From Gammaproteobacteria bacterium (GTDB lineage: Bacteria; Pseudomonadota; Gammaproteobacteria; Eutrophobiales; Eutrophobiaceae): a DNA stretch of 64,000 nucleotides. Positions 1,412 through 12,827 of the stretch are shown in pieces. Made by a program: the position numbers and the translations under genes. How positions within the stretch are numbered: position 1 is the first letter of the stretch; each line of letters opens with the position of its first letter. A model generated the notes under the pieces. That model was not told the origin of the DNA. It was given only the letters and a program-made list of their open reading frames with translations, and made no database searches. The stretch lies in the NCBI GenBank assembly GCA_004297165.1, contig SCUJ01000006.1:124001-188000 (forward strand). Direction: 5' to 3'.

Positions 1412-2770
1412 TCAGTTAAATCGCAGGGTGAAGATGCAGCCCTTGCCAGGCGCCGTCTTGACCGAGAGCAATCCCTTGTTCACGTGCAGGATCTGTCTGG
1501 AGATGCTCAGCCCGATGCCGGAGCCGTTGCGTTTGGTGGTGAAAAAGGGGACAAAAATATTTTCTAGGTTGACGGGGTCGATGCCGGGACCATTGTCGAC
1601 CACTTGCAGCAGGACCTTGCCCTGCCGGTTTTGAAACGCGCGCAGTTGAATGTTTGGCTCCGCCGTTTCCGTCAACGCTTCCATGGCGTTCTTGATAAGA
1701 TTAATCAAGACCTGCTCGATCATTTGCTGGTCCGCCCTGATGGCCAGATTATCGACAGGACAGCTCATCTTGAAGCGAATCCGGTTTCGTTCCAGCTCCG
1801 GGAGCATGATCGTTTGCACTTGATCGAACAGATTCAATACATAGACCGTGGTGAATGCCGGGGCCGGCACGTTGATCAGATTGGTATAGGCCCGGACAAA
1901 ATTGACCAGTCCTTTGCTGCGGGACTCAATCGATTTGATACTGCGCATCAGGTCTTCGTATTGTTCGTTCGTGAGTTCGTTGATCGCCAGACGATTTTCA
2001 TCGTGCGACATCAACATATCCTTGATGACTCCGGTCAATGAGATGATGGGCGTGACTGAATTCATGATCTCGTGGGTTAATACACGGATGAGTTTCTGCC
2101 AGGAATCTATCTCCCGCTGTTCCAGTTCGTCGCGAATATTCTGGAAGGATACCAGTTTGTAGCGTTGGTCGAGCAATTGAAACTCGGTGGCGTACAGCAC
2201 CAGTTGCAGGGTCTCATCCTCGATCTTGAGGCTGACCAGATGCCGTTCGCCGTCGGCCAGCCGCTGCAAAATCTCCGGAAGGTTTTTGTCCACCCGCGCG
2301 AACGCCTTGCCGCTTGGCAGATAGGGCGACTTGAACAGTTTCTTCGCCGAACGGTTCATCAGCGCCACCGCGCCCTCGGCATCAAGGCAGATGAGAGCGA
2401 TGCTTACATGCTCGATGACTTCCTCCAGATAGAGATAATGGGCTTCTTTCTCGAGGTTCAGACGTTGATATTCGCCGGTGATCAGTTTGTAGGCGCCGCC
2501 CAGATCGCTGAAGACCCGGCCCTTGCCTGGATTGGTGATGTTGACGGAAAAGTCATGGTGGCGGATGAACTCCAGAAAAGTGGCGAGTTCGCGGTTGGTC
2601 TTTTCAACGTAACGAATCAGATCGAAGGTGCAAATCGCGGCGAGGAGGCCGCTGATCAGTGGAGTGATCTGCCACTCGGTTCGCAGCAGTCCCCAGAACA
2701 TAACGAACGACAGCGAAACCAGCGCAAACACCCTGAGAATGACTTGCAGGCGAAAGTTCTTAAATCCCAT
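1412..2770 (-). CDS. Sensor histidine kinase (NtrB/NtrY-like)
   Basis: Membrane-bound kinase of 452 residues. Two N-terminal membrane segments (about 10-28 and 34-50) flank almost no periplasmic loop, so it likely senses membrane or cytoplasmic signals. A PAS-like region follows (about 115-215). The H-box is LTHEIMNSVTPI, the N-box NLIKNAMEAL, the G1 box VDNGPGI and the G2 box GSGIGLSI, so all catalytic elements are present. The start codon overlaps the end of the upstream response regulator by 11 nt, indicating translational coupling. It should phosphorylate that regulator, which in turn probably controls the divergent ABC exporter operon. The C-terminal F-x-L-R-F-N ending is complete. Confidence 0.92.
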   Translation of the reverse strand: MGFKNFRLQVILRVFALVSLSFVMFWGLLRTEWQITPLISGLLAAICTFDLIRYVEKTNRELATFLEFIRHHDFSVNITNPGKGRVFSDLGGAYKLITGEYQRLNLEKEAHYLYLEEVIEHVSIALICLDAEGAVALMNRSAKKLFKSPYLPSGKAFARVDKNLPEILQRLADGERHLVSLKIEDETLQLVLYATEFQLLDQRYKLVSFQNIRDELEQREIDSWQKLIRVLTHEIMNSVTPIISLTGVIKDMLMSHDENRLAINELTNEQYEDLMRSIKSIESRSKGLVNFVRAYTNLINVPAPAFTTVYVLNLFDQVQTIMLPELERNRIRFKMSCPVDNLAIRADQQMIEQVLINLIKNAMEALTETAEPNIQLRAFQNRQGKVLLQVVDNGPGIDPVNLENIFVPFFTTKRNGSGIGLSISRQILHVNKGLLSVKTAPGKGCIFTLRFN

Positions 2771-4130
2771 AACTGGCCATCTTACGGTACAACGTCGCCC
2801 GCCCCATCCCCAGTTCCTGCGCCGCCTTGCTCAGGTTGCCCTGATGTTTGGATATCGCCTTGCGAATGGCATGTTTTTCCAGGTCCCTGATATTGAGGTT
2901 GAGCGGTTCGGGGATTTGCGATTCAAGTTTGGCCAGCAAGAAGTCGTCAGGCCGCAAGGCCGTGTTTTCAGTCATGATTACGGCGCGCTCGATGGTGTGT
3001 CTGAATTCCCTGATATTGCCGGGCCAATGATAATGCTGGAGTTTCTCAACCGCGGCAGGCTGGATGCTCAGGCCGGTTTTGTTGTATTTCCTAGAGTAGG
3101 ATGCGACGAAATGCTCGGCGAGGATCGGTATGTCGGACAAACGCTCCCGCAAAGGCGGCACATGAATCTCGACGGTATTGATCCGGTAGAGCAAATCCTG
3201 GCGAAACTGGTGCTGATCGAGCATGTCGTAGACCGGTTTATTGGTGGCGCTGACCAGGCGGATATCGACCTTGATGGGCGCGTCCGAGCCAACGCGTGTA
3301 ATCGTCCGGCTCTCCAGGGCGCCGAGCAGCTTGGCCTGCATCTGCAGGTTCATATTCCCGATCTCATCCAGAAACAGGGTCCCGCCGGAGGCAATCTCGA
3401 ACCGTCCGGCACGGTCTTCCTTGGCGTCCGTAAATGCCCCTTTCTTGTGGCCGAATAATTCGGACTCGAACAGCGAGTCGGTGATGGCGCCGAGATCCAC
3501 GTTGATGAAGGCCTGATCGCAACGCAACGATTGCCGATGGATCTCGCGGGCAATCAGCTCCTTGCCGGTTCCGTTCTCGCCCAGGATCAGGACGTTGGCA
3601 TCCGTCCGTGCGACTTTTTCAATGTTGGCGAAGACCGCATTCAACGCCTCCGATGTCCCGACGATCCGGCCCGGCTCGCCGCCGATCAACCGGTTCAACA
3701 ATTGTTGTTTGGTCTTGAGCTGCTTGTTCTCGCGTTCTGTCCTGCTGAACTGGCTCGCGGCGGCGACCGTGGCCAGCAGCTTGGAGTTGTCCCAAGGCTT
3801 GATTACGAAATCCGCCGCCCCTTCCTTGATGGCCTGTACGGCGAGTTCGATGTCGCCATAGGCGGTCATCATGATCACCTTGGCGTCAGGCGCAAGTTCA
3901 TGGATCTTTTTCAGCCACTCCAGACCCTCCCGGCCAGAAGTCGCGCCCGCCGCAAAATTCATGTCGAGGAGAATGACGTCGAAATGATTTTGCGCAAGTT
4001 GCACGGGGAGCCGCCTGGGCTCGGATAGCGTGACAACGCTCTGAAATTGCTTCTTCAAGACAATCTGGGCCGCGAGCAAGACATCGGCATCATCATCGAC
4101 AATCAATATGTTTGCTGTTTCAGGCTTCAT
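2760..4130 (-). CDS. Sigma-54 activating response regulator (NtrC family, GAFTDA variant)
   Basis: Response regulator of 456 residues: receiver domain with phospho-acceptor Asp56 (VILLDMNF) and acidic triad DDD at 12-14; AAA+ domain with Walker A GENGTGKE at 184-191; the sigma-54 contact loop reads GAFTDA at 231-236 instead of the usual GAFTGA; Walker B region GGTLFLDEIGN; C-terminal Fis-type helix-turn-helix (SKAAQELGMGRATLYRKM). The GAFTDA form occurs in a subset of such activators as far as I recall, so it is probably functional. Gene order is regulator then kinase, with an 11 nt overlap. It is transcribed away from the MacB-like exporter operon, whose promoter region holds a sigma-54 element and a palindrome suitable as its binding site. 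Confidence 0.94.
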   Translation of the reverse strand: MKPETANILIVDDDADVLLAAQIVLKKQFQSVVTLSEPRRLPVQLAQNHFDVILLDMNFAAGATSGREGLEWLKKIHELAPDAKVIMMTAYGDIELAVQAIKEGAADFVIKPWDNSKLLATVAAASQFSRTERENKQLKTKQQLLNRLIGGEPGRIVGTSEALNAVFANIEKVARTDANVLILGENGTGKELIAREIHRQSLRCDQAFINVDLGAITDSLFESELFGHKKGAFTDAKEDRAGRFEIASGGTLFLDEIGNMNLQMQAKLLGALESRTITRVGSDAPIKVDIRLVSATNKPVYDMLDQHQFRQDLLYRINTVEIHVPPLRERLSDIPILAEHFVASYSRKYNKTGLSIQPAAVEKLQHYHWPGNIREFRHTIERAVIMTENTALRPDDFLLAKLESQIPEPLNLNIRDLEKHAIRKAISKHQGNLSKAAQELGMGRATLYRKMASYGI

Positions 4131-4203
4131 GACTTGCTCGCAACCGGGTCAGCGTTATGGAAAACAGTCGCTAAAATACAGAGCGTCCTGATAGATGTCT
4201 CAT

Positions 4204-4226
4204 ATTGAAACAGAGATTGTTTCAAT
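4204..4226. promoter_or_regulatory. Candidate upstream activator palindrome for the sigma-54 regulator
   Basis: Perfect inverted repeat ATTGAAACA-N5-TGTTTCAAT (9 bp arms). Its centre (4215) lies about 104 bp before the -24 GG of the sigma-54 element at 4319, the usual range for an enhancer bound by an NtrC-type activator. A half site (ATTGAAA) recurs at 4284-4290. Binding by the adjacent regulator is inferred from position and symmetry. Confidence 0.6.
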
Positions 4227-4318
4227 TTAAAACAGAATATCCATGCCATCGATTCGAACCTCCAAGATATTAATCCGTAACGTATTGAAATCATGAACAT
4301 ATAAATTCCCGTCTCGCC

Positions 4319-4334
4319 TGGCACATATCTTGAG
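4319..4334 (+). promoter_or_regulatory. Sigma-54 promoter of the ABC exporter operon
   Basis: TGGCACATATCTTGAG compared with the consensus TGGCACG-N4-TTGCA: the -24 half is exact through TGGCAC, spacing is right, and the -12 half reads TTGA rather than TTGC. Expected transcription start is near 4345, giving a leader of about 60 nt before the adaptor gene at 4407. The divergent gene pair encodes a sigma-54 activator, which supports the call. Confidence 0.72.
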
Positions 4335-4406
4335 AATACGAGACGGTAAATACGCACAGCAAAAACCGTCCCAGGTCAAAAAAGCCGCTACAACTGAAAT
4401 TTAAGA

Positions 4407-5684
4407 ATGGATCGAAAACTTGAAAAAAAAGGTTGGTCACCGGCCCGGCTGGCGCTGATTATCGGCGGCATTTCGCTCGTCCTGGTACTGGCCTCGCTGA
4501 TCTTGAAACAGTCGGGGAAATCCAGTCTGCGCATCGACTCAAGCCGGATCACCGTATCGCGGGTGGAACAAGGACAATTCCTCGAATATTACCCATCGAG
4601 TGGATGGGTGGAGCCGGAGATTTCCTATTTTCTGGATGTGGAACAAGGCGGGCGGGCGGAAGAGATCCTGGTCGAGGGAGGCCAATACGTAAACAAGGGC
4701 GATCTCATCCTCAGATTATCCAATGTTGCGTTACAACGCCAAAACATCGAAACGGAAATGCGCCTCATGGAAAACCTGGATCGGCAGCAGAACACACAGT
4801 TCGCGCGCACATCCAACAAACTCATGATGCGGGAATCGTTACAGGACCTTGAATACCAGATACTGGATCTTGAGAAACGCCACCGACGTTACAAGGCATT
4901 AACAGAGCAGAAGACCAACGATCTCTCACGCGAACAATTCGAGGCGGTCAGGGATGAGTTGGCATACAGAAAAAACCGGCGGGACCTGCTGAAAGAGCGG
5001 ATACGAATTGAAGATCAGCTCAGCGAACAACAGTTGGAGCTCGCGAATAAATCCATCGAGCGCATCAATGTGTCTCTGGACCTGTTAAATCAGATTGCCG
5101 CGAGCATGGACGTGCGCGCGCCCATCTCCGGCCACTTGTCCAGCATCAGCGCCGAGATCGGTCAGAATATTCTGCCCGGCCAGCGCATCGGCCAGATCGA
5201 TCTCTTGGACAAGTTCAAGCTGCGGGTGGAGATCGACCAGTATTATTTGAATCGGGTGGAGATCGGCACCAAGGGCAAATTCGAACTCGATGGCAGGACC
5301 TTCGGTGTTGCGGTAAAAAAGATCTATCCGGAGGTGCTGAACAATATCTTCAACGTGGACATGACCTTCATCGAAGAGCCGCCGCCCGGACTCAAGCGCG
5401 GCCAGGAACTCACTGTCGAATTGAGTTTCGGCGAACCCAGCCAAAGCCTGATGGTCTCCAAGGGCGGCTTCTACCAGCAGACCAGCGGTCGTTGGGTCTA
5501 CCTGATTACCGCGGAGGGAAAGTCCGCCGTACGCACCGATATACGGTTGGGACGCCAGAATCCGCGGCATGTGGAAGTTCTCGAAGGACTGCACGAAGGC
5601 GACTGGGTCATAACCTCGGGATACGATTCTTTCAACGCCGTGGATGAATTAATCTTTAATGAAGGGCTTGATCTGGAACGCTGA
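4407..5684 (+). CDS. Periplasmic adaptor (HlyD/MacA-like membrane fusion protein)
   Basis: Membrane fusion protein of 425 residues that would link the inner-membrane FtsX-type permeases to an outer-membrane channel or periplasmic substrate. One N-terminal anchor (about 14-34) is followed by a barrel-sandwich/lipoyl half (VEQGGRAEEILVEGGQYVNKGD), a long helical hairpin (about 115-230, rich in E, Q, R, L), the second lipoyl half (MDVRAPISGHLSSISAEIGQ), and beta-barrel and membrane-proximal domains (GLHEGDWVITSG near the C-terminus). First gene behind the sigma-54 promoter; the ATPase gene follows 37 nt downstream. No outer-membrane factor gene is present in the operon. Confidence 0.9.
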   Translation: MDRKLEKKGWSPARLALIIGGISLVLVLASLILKQSGKSSLRIDSSRITVSRVEQGQFLEYYPSSGWVEPEISYFLDVEQGGRAEEILVEGGQYVNKGDLILRLSNVALQRQNIETEMRLMENLDRQQNTQFARTSNKLMMRESLQDLEYQILDLEKRHRRYKALTEQKTNDLSREQFEAVRDELAYRKNRRDLLKERIRIEDQLSEQQLELANKSIERINVSLDLLNQIAASMDVRAPISGHLSSISAEIGQNILPGQRIGQIDLLDKFKLRVEIDQYYLNRVEIGTKGKFELDGRTFGVAVKKIYPEVLNNIFNVDMTFIEEPPPGLKRGQELTVELSFGEPSQSLMVSKGGFYQQTSGRWVYLITAEGKSAVRTDIRLGRQNPRHVEVLEGLHEGDWVITSGYDSFNAVDELIFNEGLDLER

Positions 5685-5721: not shown

Positions 5722-6417
5722 ATGATGATCATAGAGACAGAAAACCTGAAAAAGCTGTACCGCACCGAAGAGGTGGAAACCACGGCCCTGGACGGCGTAA
5801 ATATAAAAATTAATGAAGGGGAATTCGTTTCCATCATGGGACCGTCCGGTTGCGGCAAATCCACCCTGATGCACCTGCTGGGCTTAATCGATAATCCATC
5901 CGGCGGCGTCTATAAATTTCAGGGCGAGGATGTCGCAGGTTACTCGGAGCGGCAGCGCGCCCCATTGCGCAAGGCCAATATCGGCTTCGTTTTCCAGAGT
6001 TTCAATCTGATTGACGAACTGACCGTGTTCGAGAATGTCGAGTTGCCGATGATATACAACAAAACCCCGGCCAGCGAGCGCAAGCCCAGGGTCGAGGCGG
6101 TGCTGGAGAAGATGAATATGGCGCACCGGATGAATCATTTCCCCCTGCAACTCTCCGGCGGCCAGCAGCAGCGCGTGGCCGTGGCGCGCGCCATCGTTAA
6201 CAATCCCAATCTGATCCTGGCCGATGAGCCTACGGGCAATCTGGACTCGGAACATGGCGAGGAGGTGATGAAGATCCTGGTACACCTGAATGAGGAGGGC
6301 ACCACCATCATCATGGTGACGCACTCGGAGGAAAACGCCGCCTATGGCGCCCGTGTGATCCGGCTCCTGGATGGGAGGATTGTCGCGGAAAATTCTCCCG
6401 AGAAGGAATACGCTTAA
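5722..6417 (+). CDS. ABC transporter ATPase (MacB/LolD-type)
   Basis: ATPase subunit of the exporter, about 231 residues. Walker [11 protein letters not shown]-loop region [21 protein letters not shown], signature [15 protein letters not shown], Walker [13 protein letters not shown] and H-loop MVTHSEE are all intact. An in-frame ATG at 5659 overlaps the adaptor stop, but the ATG at 5722 (or 5725) has GGAG 6 nt upstream and gives the family-typical start [14 protein letters not shown], so 5722 is chosen. This subfamily energises mechanotransmission by FtsX-like permeases rather than transport through the membrane pore. Permease gene follows 45 nt later. Confidence 0.92.
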
Positions 6418-6462: not shown

Positions 6463-8886
6463 TTGGGTAGCTCTATAACCATCACTTTGCGAAAACTCTA
6501 TCGCGAGAAGTTGTACGCGCTGATCAACGTCGCCGGGCTCTCGCTGGGGATAGCGTGCTGCCTCATTCTGGCGCTGTACCTGCGCAGTGAGCTGACCTAC
6601 GACCAGTATCACGTCAACCATAAAAAGATTTTCCGGGTGGTTAACGAGTTTAATGTCAACGGCAAGGTCGACAGCTTTGGCATCACCTCATCGGTGCTCG
6701 GACAGATGTTGAAAGAGGAATATCCCGAGGTCCAGGATTATGTCAGGTTGCGGCCCATACAACAGAAGATCCTGTACCACTATGAGGACAAGGCATTTTA
6801 CTGGGACAACGTGTATTTTGCCGATGAAAACCTGTTTAAGGTATTCACCCACGACATCATCTACGGCGATCCGGAAACAGCGCTGAAGGAACCGAATACC
6901 GCGGCGGTGAACCAATCGTTTGCGCGGACCTTCTTCGGCGATGAAAACCCGATCGGCAAGGTGATCACGGGAGATAACGGCGTCCCCAACACGATAACGC
7001 TGGTCTTCGCCGATCTGCCGGAAAACTCCCATATCCGTTATGAAGTGATAGGTTCTTATAACAATCCGCAACTCAAGATCCCCGAGAATGTCACGGCGCG
7101 CAAGCAACAATTAATGGGAGTTAATGACTACACATTCCTGGTCATGGATGAAAACTATAACGTCGATGATTTCAAGCGTATCTCCACGGAATTCTTCGAC
7201 CGGAATATGGCAGCGCAGGGCAAGCAACTGAACGCGACCTGGCGCGCCTGGTTGCAACCATTGAAGGACATGCATCTGTATTCGGACGTCGCTTATGACG
7301 AACCAACGGGAAACCTGTACGCGCTGTATGGTTTCGCCGCCGTGGCCGTGTTTATACTGGCGGTGGCATGCATCAATTATATCAATCTGGCCACGGCGCG
7401 TTACGCCAGGCGCGCGAGGGAAGTGGGCATGCGCAAGATCCTGGGCGCTGGACGCGGTCAACTGATCGCGCAATTCATGGGCGAAGCATTGTGTTTCTCC
7501 TTGATCTCCCTGGTCGCGGGGATACTGATTGTCGAACTGGCTTTAACCCTGACCCCCATCAATCATCTGCTGGACACGAATCTGGCGCTAAATCTGACCG
7601 GGGAACCCGCCTTGCTGGGGTGGTTGATAGCGCTCGGCGTCGGCATCGGCGTTATCGCGGGCATCTATCCCGCATTTTATCTCTCTTCGGTCTCGCCCCT
7701 GTCGGCGTTGCTCTCCAATCGCAAGGCGGGCATAGCCGGGATACGCTTGCGAGAAGTACTGGTGTTGGCGCAATTCACGATATCGGTCGGCGTGATTGCC
7801 TGCACTTTACTGATGGCCGCGCAGATGCGCTATGTCTCCAACAAGGCGCTGGGTTTCAATAAGGATAACCGCATAATCGTCACGGTGAGAGGCGTGGACC
7901 TGATCGAGAAATTGGGCGTGCTCAAAACCGAGCTGGAAAAATACAAAGGTATTCTCGGCGTTACGGCCAGTGACAAACTTATCGGCGAAGACATGCCGAT
8001 TAACGGCATTCCCATCGAGACTGCAAACGGTCAAATGGAGACGACCACGATACAGCATATGTCGGTCGCGGACGATTATCTTGAGGTCATGGGCCTGGAA
8101 CTGGTCGAGGGCCGGGACTTCTCGAAAAAATTGCTGACCGATGTGGGCACCAGTTTTGTCGTGAACGAGACTTTAGTCAGGAAAATGGGTTGGGACAAGG
8201 CAATCGGCAAGCGCCTGCAGACCGGCCGTGTGATCGGCGTGATTAAGGATTTTCATTATGCCTCGCTGCACACAGAAATCGCCCCCTATGCGCTGCATCC
8301 GTTCAACGATAATTTCGATAATATCCCGCAAAATATTCGTCCCTACATTTTACGGCATATGATTGTCAATATTTCGGGAGAGGATATTCGCGGCGCCCTG
8401 GGGTTTCTTGAAGATACCTTCACCGCGTTCGACCCGAAGCATCCATTCGAATTCAAGTTCCTGGACGACTCGTTGAATGAACTGTACCTCTCCGAGCAGC
8501 GGCTCATGGAATTAACGGGGATCTTCGCCGGCATCTGTATCTTTATCGCCTGCCTGGGCCTGTTCGGACTGGCGGCTTTCACCACCGAACAGCGCACCAA
8601 GGAGATCGGCATTCGCAAGGTGCTTGGCGCTTCGGCGGCGCAGATCATCCTTTTGTTGTCGAAAAATATTCTGGCTCTGGTGGTGATCGGCGCGGTTATT
8701 GCCTCGCTGGCATCCTGGTATGTCATGATGCAGTGGCTGACCGGGTTCGCTTACCACACGGAGATCAATCCCCTGGTATTTTTACTGGCGGCGGCGCTGG
8801 CGGCAGCAGTGGCCTATATCACTCTGGCGTTGCAATCTTTCAAGACGGCCAGCGCCAACCCGGTGCTGGCCTTGCGTTACGAGTAA
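6463..8886 (+). CDS. FtsX-like ABC permease, first copy
   Basis: Permease of 807 residues with two MacB-type periplasmic domains and two FtsX-like membrane modules: one membrane segment near 20-40, a large periplasmic domain, three segments beginning at LYALYGFAAVAVFILAVACINYINLATARYARRAREVGMRKILGAGRGQ, a single segment pair, a second periplasmic domain, then the terminal three-segment FtsX module (FGLAAFTTEQRTKEIGIRKVLGAS). Start is TTG at 6463 with AGGAG 7 nt upstream; no better ATG exists. It shares the whole architecture and many identical stretches with the permease at 10386, so the two probably form a heterodimer served by the single ATPase. Quotes here are short fragments of a longer conserved block. 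Confidence 0.88.
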   Translation: MGSSITITLRKLYREKLYALINVAGLSLGIACCLILALYLRSELTYDQYHVNHKKIFRVVNEFNVNGKVDSFGITSSVLGQMLKEEYPEVQDYVRLRPIQQKILYHYEDKAFYWDNVYFADENLFKVFTHDIIYGDPETALKEPNTAAVNQSFARTFFGDENPIGKVITGDNGVPNTITLVFADLPENSHIRYEVIGSYNNPQLKIPENVTARKQQLMGVNDYTFLVMDENYNVDDFKRISTEFFDRNMAAQGKQLNATWRAWLQPLKDMHLYSDVAYDEPTGNLYALYGFAAVAVFILAVACINYINLATARYARRAREVGMRKILGAGRGQLIAQFMGEALCFSLISLVAGILIVELALTLTPINHLLDTNLALNLTGEPALLGWLIALGVGIGVIAGIYPAFYLSSVSPLSALLSNRKAGIAGIRLREVLVLAQFTISVGVIACTLLMAAQMRYVSNKALGFNKDNRIIVTVRGVDLIEKLGVLKTELEKYKGILGVTASDKLIGEDMPINGIPIETANGQMETTTIQHMSVADDYLEVMGLELVEGRDFSKKLLTDVGTSFVVNETLVRKMGWDKAIGKRLQTGRVIGVIKDFHYASLHTEIAPYALHPFNDNFDNIPQNIRPYILRHMIVNISGEDIRGALGFLEDTFTAFDPKHPFEFKFLDDSLNELYLSEQRLMELTGIFAGICIFIACLGLFGLAAFTTEQRTKEIGIRKVLGASAAQIILLLSKNILALVVIGAVIASLASWYVMMQWLTGFAYHTEINPLVFLLAAALAAAVAYITLALQSFKTASANPVLALRYE

Positions 8887-8904
8887 ATGTGAGAGGAGAT
8901 GAGC

Positions 8905-10251
8905 ATGAAAACGTTTATCAAAATACAGCTGTTAGCAACCGTTCTGATTTTCAATCACGTCATGGCGCAACAGGACATCAGCGGCATATGGCAGGGGAAA
9001 CTCGACTTGGGCGGCGATCAGTCCCTGACGGTGCAATTCATTCTGGAAAAACAGGACGACGGCGCCTGGTCCGCGATCGTGAATTCGCCGGATACCGGCG
9101 GCATCAAGAATGTAAAGGCCGGCGCGGTGGCCTTCGACGGGACCAGTCTTAACATCGACGTTGCCGAATTGAGCGGCGGATTTAAAGGTCAATTCAAGGA
9201 CGGCAAGTTCGAGGGCACGTGGTCCCAGGCCGGCAGCGACATGCCCCTCATCTTGGCGCCGTATACCAAACCGGTGTTGTCCCAGGCGGATATGGATCTG
9301 CTGGCGGGTGAGTGGGTCGGCAAGCTTGAAGTTCCGGCCGGGGCCTTGACCCTGGTGTTCCGGTTCGAAATAAACGCAGCGGGCGAACTGGCGGGATTCA
9401 TCCGCAGTCCAGATCAGGGAGGCAATGAAGCGCCGGCCGCCGATATCGAGCTGGTGGATGGTGTGCTAAGTCTCAAAGTCCCGGCGGCGCAAGTCGATAT
9501 CAAGGGCAAGCTGTCCGGCACGCAATTCGCGGGCGAATTCAAACAGGGTCAGGGAACCATGCCCCTGACAATGAATAAAGGCGAGTACGTACCGCCCAAA
9601 TACGTGTTGGCGTTGTCCAATGAGGTCATGGCGCAACTGTTGGGTGAATGGCATGGCGAATTTGAGATGCCCATGGGTACACTGACCGTGATCTATCGCT
9701 TCGAGTACAACGCCACGGGTGAATTTATCGCCAACCGGAGCAGTCCGGATCAGGGCGGCAGCGGCGTTCCGATCATGGAGGCGACCCTGACCGACGGCAG
9801 CCTGACCCTGAAGACGGCCGACGGCGGTTTTACCGGAAAACTCGACGGTGAAACCATTGCCGGCACGGTCACCAACCCGATGGGCGCCATTCCCCTCACG
9901 GTCAAGAAAGGCCAGTTTGTTCCACCGGCTTACAATCTAAAGCTGGCTAAAGAGGCCATGGACCTATTGCTGGGGAAATGGACGGGCAAACTGGCCACGC
10001 CGCAACGCACCCTGACACTGGTATTCCGGTTTGAAGCCGATGCGGCAGGTGAATACTTCGGCTTCGTCGACAGCCCGGACCAGGGCAACACCAGCCTGAA
10101 GATAGTCGAGGCCGGTTTCGCTGATGGCGAATTGTCCCTGAAAACCAAGTTCCCCAAGGCAGAGTTCAAAGGCAAACTGAACGGCGGTGAGCTTAACGGC
10201 AACTGGTCGCAGATGGGCGGAACCATGCCACTGGTCTTGAACAAGGAGTGA
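8905..10251 (+). CDS. Exported protein with four tandem beta-rich repeats
   Basis: About 448 residues. A signal peptide (MKTFIKIQLLATVLIFNHVMAQ) is followed by four repeats of roughly 105-110 residues. Each repeat has a G-x-W-x-G-K/E-L/F opening, a VxFRFE/ILE strand, a SPDQGG/SPDTGG turn, a DGxLSLK strand and a G-x-W/F-x-Q ending with MPLxL. The unit resembles the N-terminal beta domain found in front of some secreted alpha/beta hydrolases, but no enzyme domain is attached here. ATG at 8899 abuts the AGGAG; ATG at 8905 has it 6 nt upstream and is preferred. It sits between two paralogous permease genes, so it may be a periplasmic partner or substrate of the exporter; this is inference. Confidence 0.8.
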   Translation: MKTFIKIQLLATVLIFNHVMAQQDISGIWQGKLDLGGDQSLTVQFILEKQDDGAWSAIVNSPDTGGIKNVKAGAVAFDGTSLNIDVAELSGGFKGQFKDGKFEGTWSQAGSDMPLILAPYTKPVLSQADMDLLAGEWVGKLEVPAGALTLVFRFEINAAGELAGFIRSPDQGGNEAPAADIELVDGVLSLKVPAAQVDIKGKLSGTQFAGEFKQGQGTMPLTMNKGEYVPPKYVLALSNEVMAQLLGEWHGEFEMPMGTLTVIYRFEYNATGEFIANRSSPDQGGSGVPIMEATLTDGSLTLKTADGGFTGKLDGETIAGTVTNPMGAIPLTVKKGQFVPPAYNLKLAKEAMDLLLGKWTGKLATPQRTLTLVFRFEADAAGEYFGFVDSPDQGNTSLKIVEAGFADGELSLKTKFPKAEFKGKLNGGELNGNWSQMGGTMPLVLNKE

Positions 10252-10385: not shown

Positions 10386-12827
10386 ATGTTCAGCAATTAT
10401 CTCAAAATTATCCTGCACAAACTCTATCGCGAGAAACTGTACGCACTTATCAATATTTCCGGACTGGCGATTGCCATTGCCTGTTGCGTGATCCTGGGAT
10501 TGTATCTGCGCAGCGAACTGACTTATGACCGTTATCAGGTCAACCATGAGCGCATATTCCGGCTGGAGCGGGAGTTCAATATCAACGGCAAGATAAACCG
10601 CTATGCCATTAACTCAACCGTGATCGGCCCGATGTTAAAAGAGGATTTTCCCGAGATCGTGGACTATGTCCGGTTACGGCCCAATCTGCAGTCGATCCTG
10701 ATCCGCCATGGCAACAACGCCTATTACTGGGACAGAACTTTCATCGCTGACGATAACATTTTCAGTTTTTTCACTCATGACATTATCCATGGCAATCCCG
10801 AGACCGCCCTGGTGGATCCAGGCAGTGTCGCGGTAAGCGAGACTTTTGCCAGGACCTATTTCGGCGACGAGAATCCCATGGGGCAGACCATCAGCACCGA
10901 CACAGGCGGGCCGCGGACCATTACCCTGGTCTTCGCCGATCAGCCAGAGAATACTCATTTGAAATACGACGTGCTGTATTCCTATAATCACGACAGCGTC
11001 GCAATACCGGATAATATGACCGCGCGCCGTGAAAACCTGTGGGGTGGTTATGATTTTACCTACCTTTTGATGCCCGAGGGTTTCCAGGCGGGTGACTTTA
11101 AGCGTATTAACGATGCGTTTTACTCCCGTCATGCCGCGGAACAAGGCAGGGCAGCCGGAACGTCTTTCCGCACCTGGTTGACACCGCTCGCGGACATTCA
11201 TTTGGACTCATCCGATCTGGAATATGATGTGCCCGGCGGTAACAAATTATATCTGTACGGATTCGCGGCTGTGGCGGTCTTTATTCTGTTGGTGGCCTGT
11301 ATTAATTACATGAATCTGGCCACGGCCCGCGCTGCCAAACGAGCCAAGGAAGTCGGCATGCATAAAATCCTAGGGGCGGGGAGGGGGCAGTTGATCATGC
11401 AGTTCCTGGGGGAGTCGTTGTGCTTCACGTTCATTGCTTTGCTGTTCGGCATTGTTTTGGTCGAAATCGCTTTGCAGATGACGCTGGTGACTACCCTGCT
11501 GGATAAGCCTTTATCCCTGGATCTATTCAGGGAACCGGAATTATTAGCTTGGCTGGCTGGTCTGGGGTTGTTGATCGGGACGCTAGCCGGCGTTTATCCC
11601 GCTATTTATCTATCGTCGATGCTGCCGCTATCCGCTTTGGTGGGAAGCAATAAAAACGCGAAGGCCAATATCCGATTCAGGGAAGGACTGGTGTTGGTGC
11701 AGTTTGTCATCTCCGTGGGAGTCATAGCCTGTACCTTGTTGATGGCGGCGCAGATGCGCTACGTCTCCAGTAAATCCCTGGGGTTCAATAAGGAGAATCT
11801 CGCGATGATCCGTTTGCAGGGTTTGGAACTGATCGACAAGATCCCGACGATGCGCAATGAATTGCTGAAGAACAATCGAGTCCTCGACATCACTTCGGCG
11901 CCCAGAATCATGGGCCAGGGTTTCCCAACCTTCGGCGGACAGGCTGAAAATAATGAAGGCGAAATGGTGACAATAACGACCCATAACTCATCCGTGGACG
12001 ATAATTTTATTGATGCGATGGGATTGGAGTTGATTGCCGGGAGGGATTTTTCAAAAAAGTTCCTGTCCGATTCCGGGGCGAACTTCGTCGTCAATGAGGC
12101 AGTGGTGCGAATGATGGGTTGGACTGAACCTGTGGGCAAACGCTTTCAGTCCGGCCCGTTTACTGGCCGGGTGATCGGCGTCGTGAAGGACTTTAACTTC
12201 AAGTCACTGCACAGCCCGGTGGAACCTTTCGTATTGACCCAGTATGTGGACAAAACCCGGCGTATTCCTGCCGAATTACTGCCAAACCCGACTCGCATGC
12301 TGGTGTTGAAAATAGCCGGGGAAAACATCCGCGAGACGCTTAAGTTTATCGAGGAGAAATTTGCCGAGTTCGATCCTACTCATCCGTTTGAATTCGAGTT
12401 CCTGGATGATACCTTGAGCCGGCTTTATCTCTCGGAGCAACGGCTCATGAAGCTGATCGGCGTCTTTGCCGGGATCTGTATCTTCATCGCCTGCATGGGC
12501 CTGTTTGGCTTGGCTGCCTTTACCACGGAACAGCGCACCAAGGAGATCGGGATCCGCAAGGTGTTGGGCGCGACGACGGCGCAAATCATTTTCATGTTGT
12601 CGCGTGGCATCTTGATCCTGGTATTAATCGGTTCAGTGGTGGCTTCCCTCATGGCCTGGTATGCCATGGACGAATGGCTGGCAGGTTTTGCCTATCGCAC
12701 TGAGATCAATCCACTGGTTTTTCTGTTGTCGGCCACACTCGCCGCAGCCATTGCTTTCATTACCCTGGCCCTGCAATCCTTAAAGACCGCCAGGTCCAAC
12801 CCGGTGCAGGCATTGCGGTATGAGTAA
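10386..12827 (+). CDS. FtsX-like ABC permease, second copy
   Basis: Permease of 813 residues, clear paralogue of the protein at 6463: same order of membrane segments, two MacB-type periplasmic domains and shared blocks such as LYREKLYALIN, ACINYMNLATARAAKRAKEVGM, RYVSSKSLGFNKEN, EGRDFSKK/AGRDFSKK and LFGLAAFTTEQRTKEIGIRK. ATG with AGGAG upstream (GATAGGAGTTGAATAACC). A gap of 134 bp separates it from the four-repeat gene. Its last codons overlap the hydrolase start by 8 nt. Divergence is greatest in the periplasmic domains, suggesting the two copies contact different partners. Substrate unknown. Confidence 0.87.
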   Translation: MFSNYLKIILHKLYREKLYALINISGLAIAIACCVILGLYLRSELTYDRYQVNHERIFRLEREFNINGKINRYAINSTVIGPMLKEDFPEIVDYVRLRPNLQSILIRHGNNAYYWDRTFIADDNIFSFFTHDIIHGNPETALVDPGSVAVSETFARTYFGDENPMGQTISTDTGGPRTITLVFADQPENTHLKYDVLYSYNHDSVAIPDNMTARRENLWGGYDFTYLLMPEGFQAGDFKRINDAFYSRHAAEQGRAAGTSFRTWLTPLADIHLDSSDLEYDVPGGNKLYLYGFAAVAVFILLVACINYMNLATARAAKRAKEVGMHKILGAGRGQLIMQFLGESLCFTFIALLFGIVLVEIALQMTLVTTLLDKPLSLDLFREPELLAWLAGLGLLIGTLAGVYPAIYLSSMLPLSALVGSNKNAKANIRFREGLVLVQFVISVGVIACTLLMAAQMRYVSSKSLGFNKENLAMIRLQGLELIDKIPTMRNELLKNNRVLDITSAPRIMGQGFPTFGGQAENNEGEMVTITTHNSSVDDNFIDAMGLELIAGRDFSKKFLSDSGANFVVNEAVVRMMGWTEPVGKRFQSGPFTGRVIGVVKDFNFKSLHSPVEPFVLTQYVDKTRRIPAELLPNPTRMLVLKIAGENIRETLKFIEEKFAEFDPTHPFEFEFLDDTLSRLYLSEQRLMKLIGVFAGICIFIACMGLFGLAAFTTEQRTKEIGIRKVLGATTAQIIFMLSRGILILVLIGSVVASLMAWYAMDEWLAGFAYRTEINPLVFLLSATLAAAIAFITLALQSLKTARSNPVQALRYE

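Follow-up and report, generated by a model that had tools for sequence, protein, structure and literature searches.

The window analysed here, a 64,000-nucleotide stretch of a gammaproteobacterial contig, contains a 276-bp intergenic region from which regulator and kinase genes run leftward and the genes of an exporter run rightward. The initial annotation had described a near-consensus -24/-12 element, a perfect 9-bp inverted repeat about 104 bp upstream and an adjacent NtrC-type regulator with a GAFTDA loop, and had read them as a full regulatory circuit placing an FtsX/MacB-type exporter under sigma-54 control. The locus thus raises the question of what the inverted repeat represents and how far such a circuit is supported by related loci. 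The genes around the divergent region are the following.

360-1397, leftward, after the kinase: ApbE-family protein
1412-2770, minus strand: sensor histidine kinase, 452 aa, with a HATPase_c domain and LTHEI at 231
2760-4130, minus strand: NtrC-family response regulator, 456 aa, with receiver, AAA+ and Fis-type HTH domains
4407-5684, plus strand: periplasmic adaptor of the HlyD/RND_mfp type, DarC-like, 425 aa
5722-6417, plus strand: ABC ATPase, LolD/DarD-like, 231 aa
6463-8886, plus strand: duplicated FtsX/MacB_PCD permease, ADOP/DarB-like, 807 aa, TTG start as listed
8899-10251 as listed, plus strand: secreted repeat protein, 448 aa, between the two permeases
10386-12827, plus strand: second permease of the same family as the first, 813 aa
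Beyond the second permease, rightward: epoxide-hydrolase-like protein

All three parts of the regulator (REC, Sigma54_activat and the Fis-type HTH) scored above the Pfam cut-off, and its Walker A and Walker B motifs read GENGTGKE at 184 and GGTLFLDEIG at 249. The hydropathy profile of the kinase has two N-terminal transmembrane peaks, at 10-28 and 34-52, with the periplasmic loop nearly absent, and a Pfam scan of the protein returned HATPase_c only, with no match to HisKA. The genome (3.53 Mb) carries one copy of rpoN. PADLOC matches of the regulator and the ATPase were rejected as generic AAA+/ABC similarity.

The FtsX/MacB_PCD permease bears out the description of the exporter as FtsX/MacB-type, but not as MacB proper, which is one fused chain, whereas the ATPase (5722-6417) and the permease (6463-8886) are separate genes here. 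The adaptor, the LolD-like ATPase and the duplicated FtsX permease resemble those of the DarBCD darobactin exporter, ADOP and MacAB; the nearest models are DarBCD and ADOP, with all scores under the curated NCBIfam cut-offs (DarC 171.6/450, DarD 275.2/375, DarB 90.1/700, ADOP 283.5/622.3). The second permease (10386-12827) possibly belongs to the exporter operon. Neither Pfam nor NCBIfam yielded a match to the secreted protein of 448 aa; its single-sequence AlphaFold model (mean pLDDT 75, pTM 0.32) consists of four similar blocks of ~8 strands each, and a fold search with the protein gave TM-scores of at most 0.25 and no convincing match. No signal-biosynthesis gene was found among the nine proteins scanned between 360 and 14097.

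Inverted repeat, tandem dyads and related divergent regions

The inverted repeat, the -24/-12 element and the GAFTDA loop all lie where they had been placed initially, and the distance from the centre of the palindrome to 4319 is 104 bp, as described. The DNA elements of the region are these.

4196-4212, plus strand: predicted upstream enhancer dyad 1, TGTCTCATATTGAAACA
4204-4226, no strand assigned: perfect 9-bp inverted repeat, ATTGAAACA-GAGAT-TGTTTCAAT, formed by dyad 1 (right half), 5 intervening nt and dyad 2 (left half)
4218-4234, plus strand: predicted upstream enhancer dyad 2, TGTTTCAATTTAAAACA, spaced 22 bp from the first
4278-4290, minus strand: one-mismatch IHF-like site, TAACGTATTGAAA, of little weight by itself
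4319-4334, plus strand: predicted sigma-54 -24/-12 element, TGGCACATATCTTGAG, 84 bp past dyad 2 and 88 bp 5' of the adaptor start codon
4358-4373, minus strand: predicted second sigma-54-like element, TGGGACGGTTTTTGCT, directed to the regulator gene

Of 4,000 shuffles of the 276-bp intergenic region, 15 contained an equally perfect 9-bp inverted repeat (gap 3-7 nt), and TGAAACA-N4..6-TGTTTCA is found at a single place in the 3.53-Mb genome. A repeat search returned a 19-nt direct repeat at 22-bp spacing, spanned by an imperfect inverted repeat of 17 nt, and two adjacent 17-bp dyads were therefore suspected. The initial annotation had missed the longer tandem structure of which the 9-bp repeat forms the centre. 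Exact matches to TGTYTCANNNTNAAACA, a pattern derived from these sites, number two in the window's own genome, both of them the window dyads, and a tandem TGT-N9..12-ACA pair arose in 6 of 20,000 shuffles of the window region alone.

For comparison, adaptor searches with set E-value limits gave hits in 4 of 369 genomes sampled from the class, in 17 of 398 sampled from the phylum and in 54 of 147 belonging to one family; under the family's limit of E 1e-60 there were 65 adaptor places, of which 48 were taken with flanks and 17 left out. A first scan of genome contigs with the regulator as query had given four distant or partial relatives only. We compared 66 loci, dropped four that had no adaptor (L033, L034, L044 and L050) and kept 62 plus the window. 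Regulator and kinase were divergent around 44 of the 62 adaptors, which with the window makes 45 divergent and 18 other regions. The conserved unit comprises five genes (short-loop kinase, regulator, adaptor, ATPase and permease); these are the only gene clusters common to most loci, a conserved substrate-synthesis gene being absent among them.

Visual inspection of the aligned divergent regions revealed a pair of almost identical sites together with a -24/-12 element. With motif limits set after inspection of the sequences, a tandem TGT-N9..12-ACA pair at a spacing of 20-23 bp was present in 39 of the 45 regions, the window included; dinucleotide shuffles (200 rounds over all 45 regions) yielded such a pair in 0.225 regions on average and in 2 at most, a comparison in which the rows are related sequences and not independent. 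L047, L094 and L102-L105 failed this strict test and contain, as judged by eye, related dyads with a mismatch or another spacing. A typical ortholog has two 16-bp TGTTCNNNNNCGTACA sites 21 bp apart. The 37 sites used for training were picked by a regular expression that fixes the letters TGG, TTG, TGT and ACA, and the letters of the site left free by it (C5, C11 and G12) are conserved at 95-100% in the 37 regions. The spacer from dyad 2 to the -24 element is 61-65 bp long in 36 of the 38 regions measured; it is 87 bp in L129 and 84 bp in the window, whose pair thus lies about two helical turns further upstream than in the orthologs.

In the family sample, the strict tandem pair was found in 28 of 147 genomes, at one place each, and the reversed control pattern in none. 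All 28 pairs lie directly upstream of the adaptor gene, and the 54 adaptor-positive genomes include all 28. At the 18 exporter regions without a divergent regulator, the pair was never found. Because the strict pair occurs once per genome and always at the exporter, the regulator looks, from the distribution of its predicted sites, dedicated to a single target, the neighbouring exporter. Other regulator targets in the window's own genome were unsupported: one- and two-mismatch matches numbered 35 and 38, a similar order of magnitude to the 14 and 23 of the control, and were scattered singles.

The window departs from its relatives in the letters of its half-sites, which are TGTYTCA/TGAAACA-like as against TGTTC/GTACA in the family. 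The recognition region of the regulator reads GRATLYRKM in the window, TRAALYRRM in the usual case and GRTTLYRKI in L044, the closest relative with a different genome (same genus, regulator 76% identical), the upstream DNA of which is lost at a contig end. From this one case we infer that the operator and the recognition helix may have changed together in the window lineage. The exact letters of the window dyads are known from one genome, and, judged by its predicted sites, the window stands apart within the family.

Promoter elements, activator loop and proposed circuit

At 4319-4333, TGGCACATATCTTGA is the sole match to TGGCAC-N5-TTG[AC] in the 64 kb, with 0.21 expected; 44 of 4,000 region shuffles reached its sigma-54 score on the plus strand. 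Under a looser consensus score, 27 sites on both strands of the 64 kb equal or beat it. The element keeps the GG and the G of the sigma-54 consensus, and its -12 part reads TTGA rather than TTGC; among the 37 ortholog sites the -12 words are TTGT (26), TTGA (5), TTGC (5) and TTGG (1). A PSSM trained on those 37 sites placed the element 20th among 127,954 positions, with a score of 6.6; in leave-one-out scoring, no ortholog fell below 9.7. This PSSM over-weights A/T context, its top window matches being at 4206 and at 4373 on the minus strand; for that reason it was dropped as a detector, and its result was counted as evidence against the element and not as a test. Taken alone, the -24/-12 element of the window is suggestive, no more.

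The spacers of the related regions also hold sites resembling the IHF consensus, WATCARxxxxTTR as printed in PMC3897727. A perfect WATCAANNNNTTR is present in 7 of 38 spacers (shuffle mean 0.38, maximum 3) and a site with at most one mismatch in 27 of 38 (shuffle mean 8.7, maximum 17), and in many orthologs the IHF-like site ends 5-6 nt ahead of the TGG. The one-mismatch site of the window is within chance for a single region.

The GAFTDA loop occupies residues 231-236 of the regulator, and the earlier numbering of Asp235 is correct. The 45 regulators have GAFTGA in 34 cases, GAFTDA in 8, and GSFTDA, GAFTNA and GSFTGA in one each. GAFTDA is also listed for DVU2106 in PMC4641369, and DVU2106 activates the orp promoters together with sigma-54 and IHF, according to PMC3897727. 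The designation as a GAFTDA activator therefore holds for the presence of the loop but not for its being unusual, as 8 of 45 regulators and the sigma-54-active DVU2106 share it; GAFTDA is a common variant, and no special explanation is needed. Covariation between D or G in GAFTxA and the base following the -12 TTG was rejected, since the 37 ortholog sites showed no pattern (G-loop regulators: TTGT 24, TTGA 5, TTGC 4, TTGG 1; D-loop regulators: TTGT 2, TTGC 1).

The recurring five-gene layout, the dyads and the -24/-12 element at fixed spacing support the proposal that the adjacent regulator controls the exporter through sigma-54, far more strongly than the window does by itself; the full circuit said to be readable from the sequence is an inference. 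The locus is very probably a dedicated local two-component switch, in which the regulator, bound to both dyads, activates sigma-54 transcription of the exporter. The kinase, with two membrane helices and without a periplasmic sensing domain, would pass phosphate to the NtrC-type regulator, dimers of which would occupy both dyads (4196-4212 and 4218-4234), which lie on the same side of the helix, and assemble into an AAA+ ring. DNA looping, perhaps aided by IHF, would carry the ring to sigma-54 RNA polymerase at 4319, where ATP hydrolysis would open the promoter and adaptor, ATPase and permease would be transcribed from a start expected near 4345. Phosphorylation, hexamer assembly and sigma-54 dependence are steps expected here from the family to which the regulator belongs.

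With 13.5 of 14.5 points, the minus-strand element at 4373-4358 ranks first in the 64 kb by sigma-54 consensus score, and the predicted starts of the two face-to-face elements both lie within a few bases of 4346. This element outscores the one at 4319 and had been missed in the initial annotation. It is possible, although we consider it rather unlikely, that TGGGACGGTTTTTGCT is a sigma-54 promoter for the regulator and kinase genes, in which case one enhancer would serve both sides and the system would amplify itself. Beyond its rank in the 64 kb, a score of this size was reached on the minus strand by 3 of 4,000 region shuffles, and L101 and L102 have a minus-strand TGGCACG-N4-TTGA 53 nt before the regulator start with extra dyads nearby, which suggests self-activation in those two loci. 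The wider comparison speaks against such a role: minus-strand scores of at least 11.5 occur in only 8 of the 45 regions, at inconsistent positions, and the median sigma-54 score is 9.5 on the minus strand vs 12.0 on the plus strand. In the window, moreover, the minus element opposes the exporter promoter head-on and implies a 5' leader of ~215 nt.

That a single regulator dimer binds one 23-bp palindrome at 4204-4226 we hold to be improbable. Its 9-bp arms are perfect and better than either 17-bp dyad, but in the orthologs the two-fold axis falls within each 16-bp TGTTCNNNNNCGTACA site, the sites being 21 bp apart, and the facing half-sites form no perfect palindrome; the four half-sites of the window keep the family's steps of 10, 12 and 10 bp. 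Of the expected conservation of the palindrome above this exporter family, the two-dyad layout is kept and the 9-bp word is not. An ordinary sigma-70 promoter for the exporter, with the palindrome bound by some other regulator, is most improbable: the imperfect -12 element favours it, but no sigma-70-type match was found in 4100-4450 (0.9 expected by chance), the -24/-12 element of the orthologs stands at a fixed distance from the dyads, and where a divergent NtrC regulator is lacking (18 exporters), the dyads are missing too. We return to the two-dyad switch, in which the palindrome is predicted to be the facing inner half-sites of two tandem dyads and not the operator unit. As judged from the sequences, the window carries an outlying version of this recurring five-gene module, its DNA more structured and its activator loop more ordinary than initially described.

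Sensing, known systems and relatives elsewhere

In 44 of the 45 kinases, L132 being the exception, the two N-terminal hydrophobic stretches nearly touch and are too close together for a sensor domain in the periplasm to fit between them. With less than even confidence, and from architecture only, we propose that the exporter may be its own sensor: the short-loop kinase would read the working state of the FtsX-type permease, and substrate load would be turned into sigma-54 transcription of the exporter alone. If this is true, the five-gene modules would be a widespread Gram-negative counterpart of Bce flux-sensing in which an enhancer replaces the OmpR-type promoter, and the window would represent a lineage with operator and recognition helix altered together.

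In Bce systems, a kinase with a minimal extracytoplasmic loop is coupled to an FtsX-like exporter (PMC5786555), and the transporter acts as the sensor. The Bce modules of Firmicutes (BceRS-BceAB) thus share with the present one an FtsX-like exporter linked to a short-loop kinase, whereas here the regulator is of the NtrC/sigma-54 type, a periplasmic adaptor is present, the kinase is of a separate class and there is no OmpR-type regulator. Filing the locus as a Bce system was rejected because its regulator is NtrC-type and not OmpR-type. For Vfm of Dickeya, PMC9306890 proposes an ABC permease as co-sensor for an NtrC-type system with a short-loop kinase, and PMC10714721 reports ATPase activity and oligomers for VfmH. 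Vfm (VfmI/VfmH, with the ABC transporter VfmG), which we liken by architecture, has an NtrC-type regulator and a linked ABC permease as here; it comprises 26 genes including signal biosynthesis against the conserved five here, and VfmH acts on vfmE and downstream genes whereas the window-type regulator appears to have one target. The orp operons of Desulfovibrio vulgaris share the GAFTDA activator DVU2106 (PMC4641369), a divergent layout and palindromic sites (PMC3897727), and also IHF between enhancer and sigma-54 promoter and local targets, as proposed here (PMC3897727); DVU2106 is listed as a single-component regulator of cell-division genes, unlike the response regulator of an exporter described here.

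The module is present in about one third of one family's genomes (54/147, E 1e-60) and also in another phylum. No description of its enhancer was found in a library of open-access papers, from which most subscription papers are missing. Its fixed geometry and single target would make it a clean system for the study of enhancer spacing, and the signal that induces the promoter would offer a route to the substrates of a common exporter type.

The five-gene order was found in Pseudomonadota genomes and on two Hymenobacter (Bacteroidota) plasmids, which represent the Bacteroidota in this comparison. The plasmid of Hymenobacter volaticus has a matching annotated gene order, a GSFTDA regulator, 17-bp dyads TGTATCAGTACCGGACA and TGTATCGAAACCGAACA at a spacing of 23, and TGGCACAATCCTTAC 62 nt beyond the dyads, with TTAC in place of TTG at -12; on the second plasmid the gene order is kept and the reading frames are broken. 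Pseudoalteromonas piscicida has the gene order, the dyad pair and TGGCATGCAACTTGA. The sites of these two species show that 17-bp dyads and a TTGA -12 also exist outside the window. In the kinase tree, L044, the window and Hymenobacter form one group (support 0.956); the regulator tree, in conflict with this, places the first two with L132, L103-L105 and Pseudoalteromonas (0.732).

Several more distant loci differ in their arrangement. L049 (G000:C12:286000-300000) is a paralogous exporter in the same genome, its adaptor 24% identical, with a near-perfect sigma-54 element, TGGCACACGCCTTGCA, 28 nt before the predicted adaptor start and no regulator found adjoining. L048, L106 and L108 belong to a distant subfamily of exporters, with adaptors 23-25% identical and TGGCACG ~50 nt before the adaptor. 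In L048 and L106, the regulator and kinase genes follow the exporter genes on the same strand; the L108 stretch has the regulator only. In L133, L141, L143, L144 and L145, related exporters adjoin another gene (cluster 9, common to six loci), tandem dyads are absent and sigma-54 scores are low; the start of the cluster 9 protein is presumably CadC/ToxR-like. On a plasmid of Janthinobacterium lividum (L206), adaptor, ATPase and permease lie amid an apparent non-ribosomal peptide region, next to a phosphopantetheinyl transferase, a cyclic peptide exporter gene and SbnA, and these neighbours hint that the substrates of such exporters include peptides.
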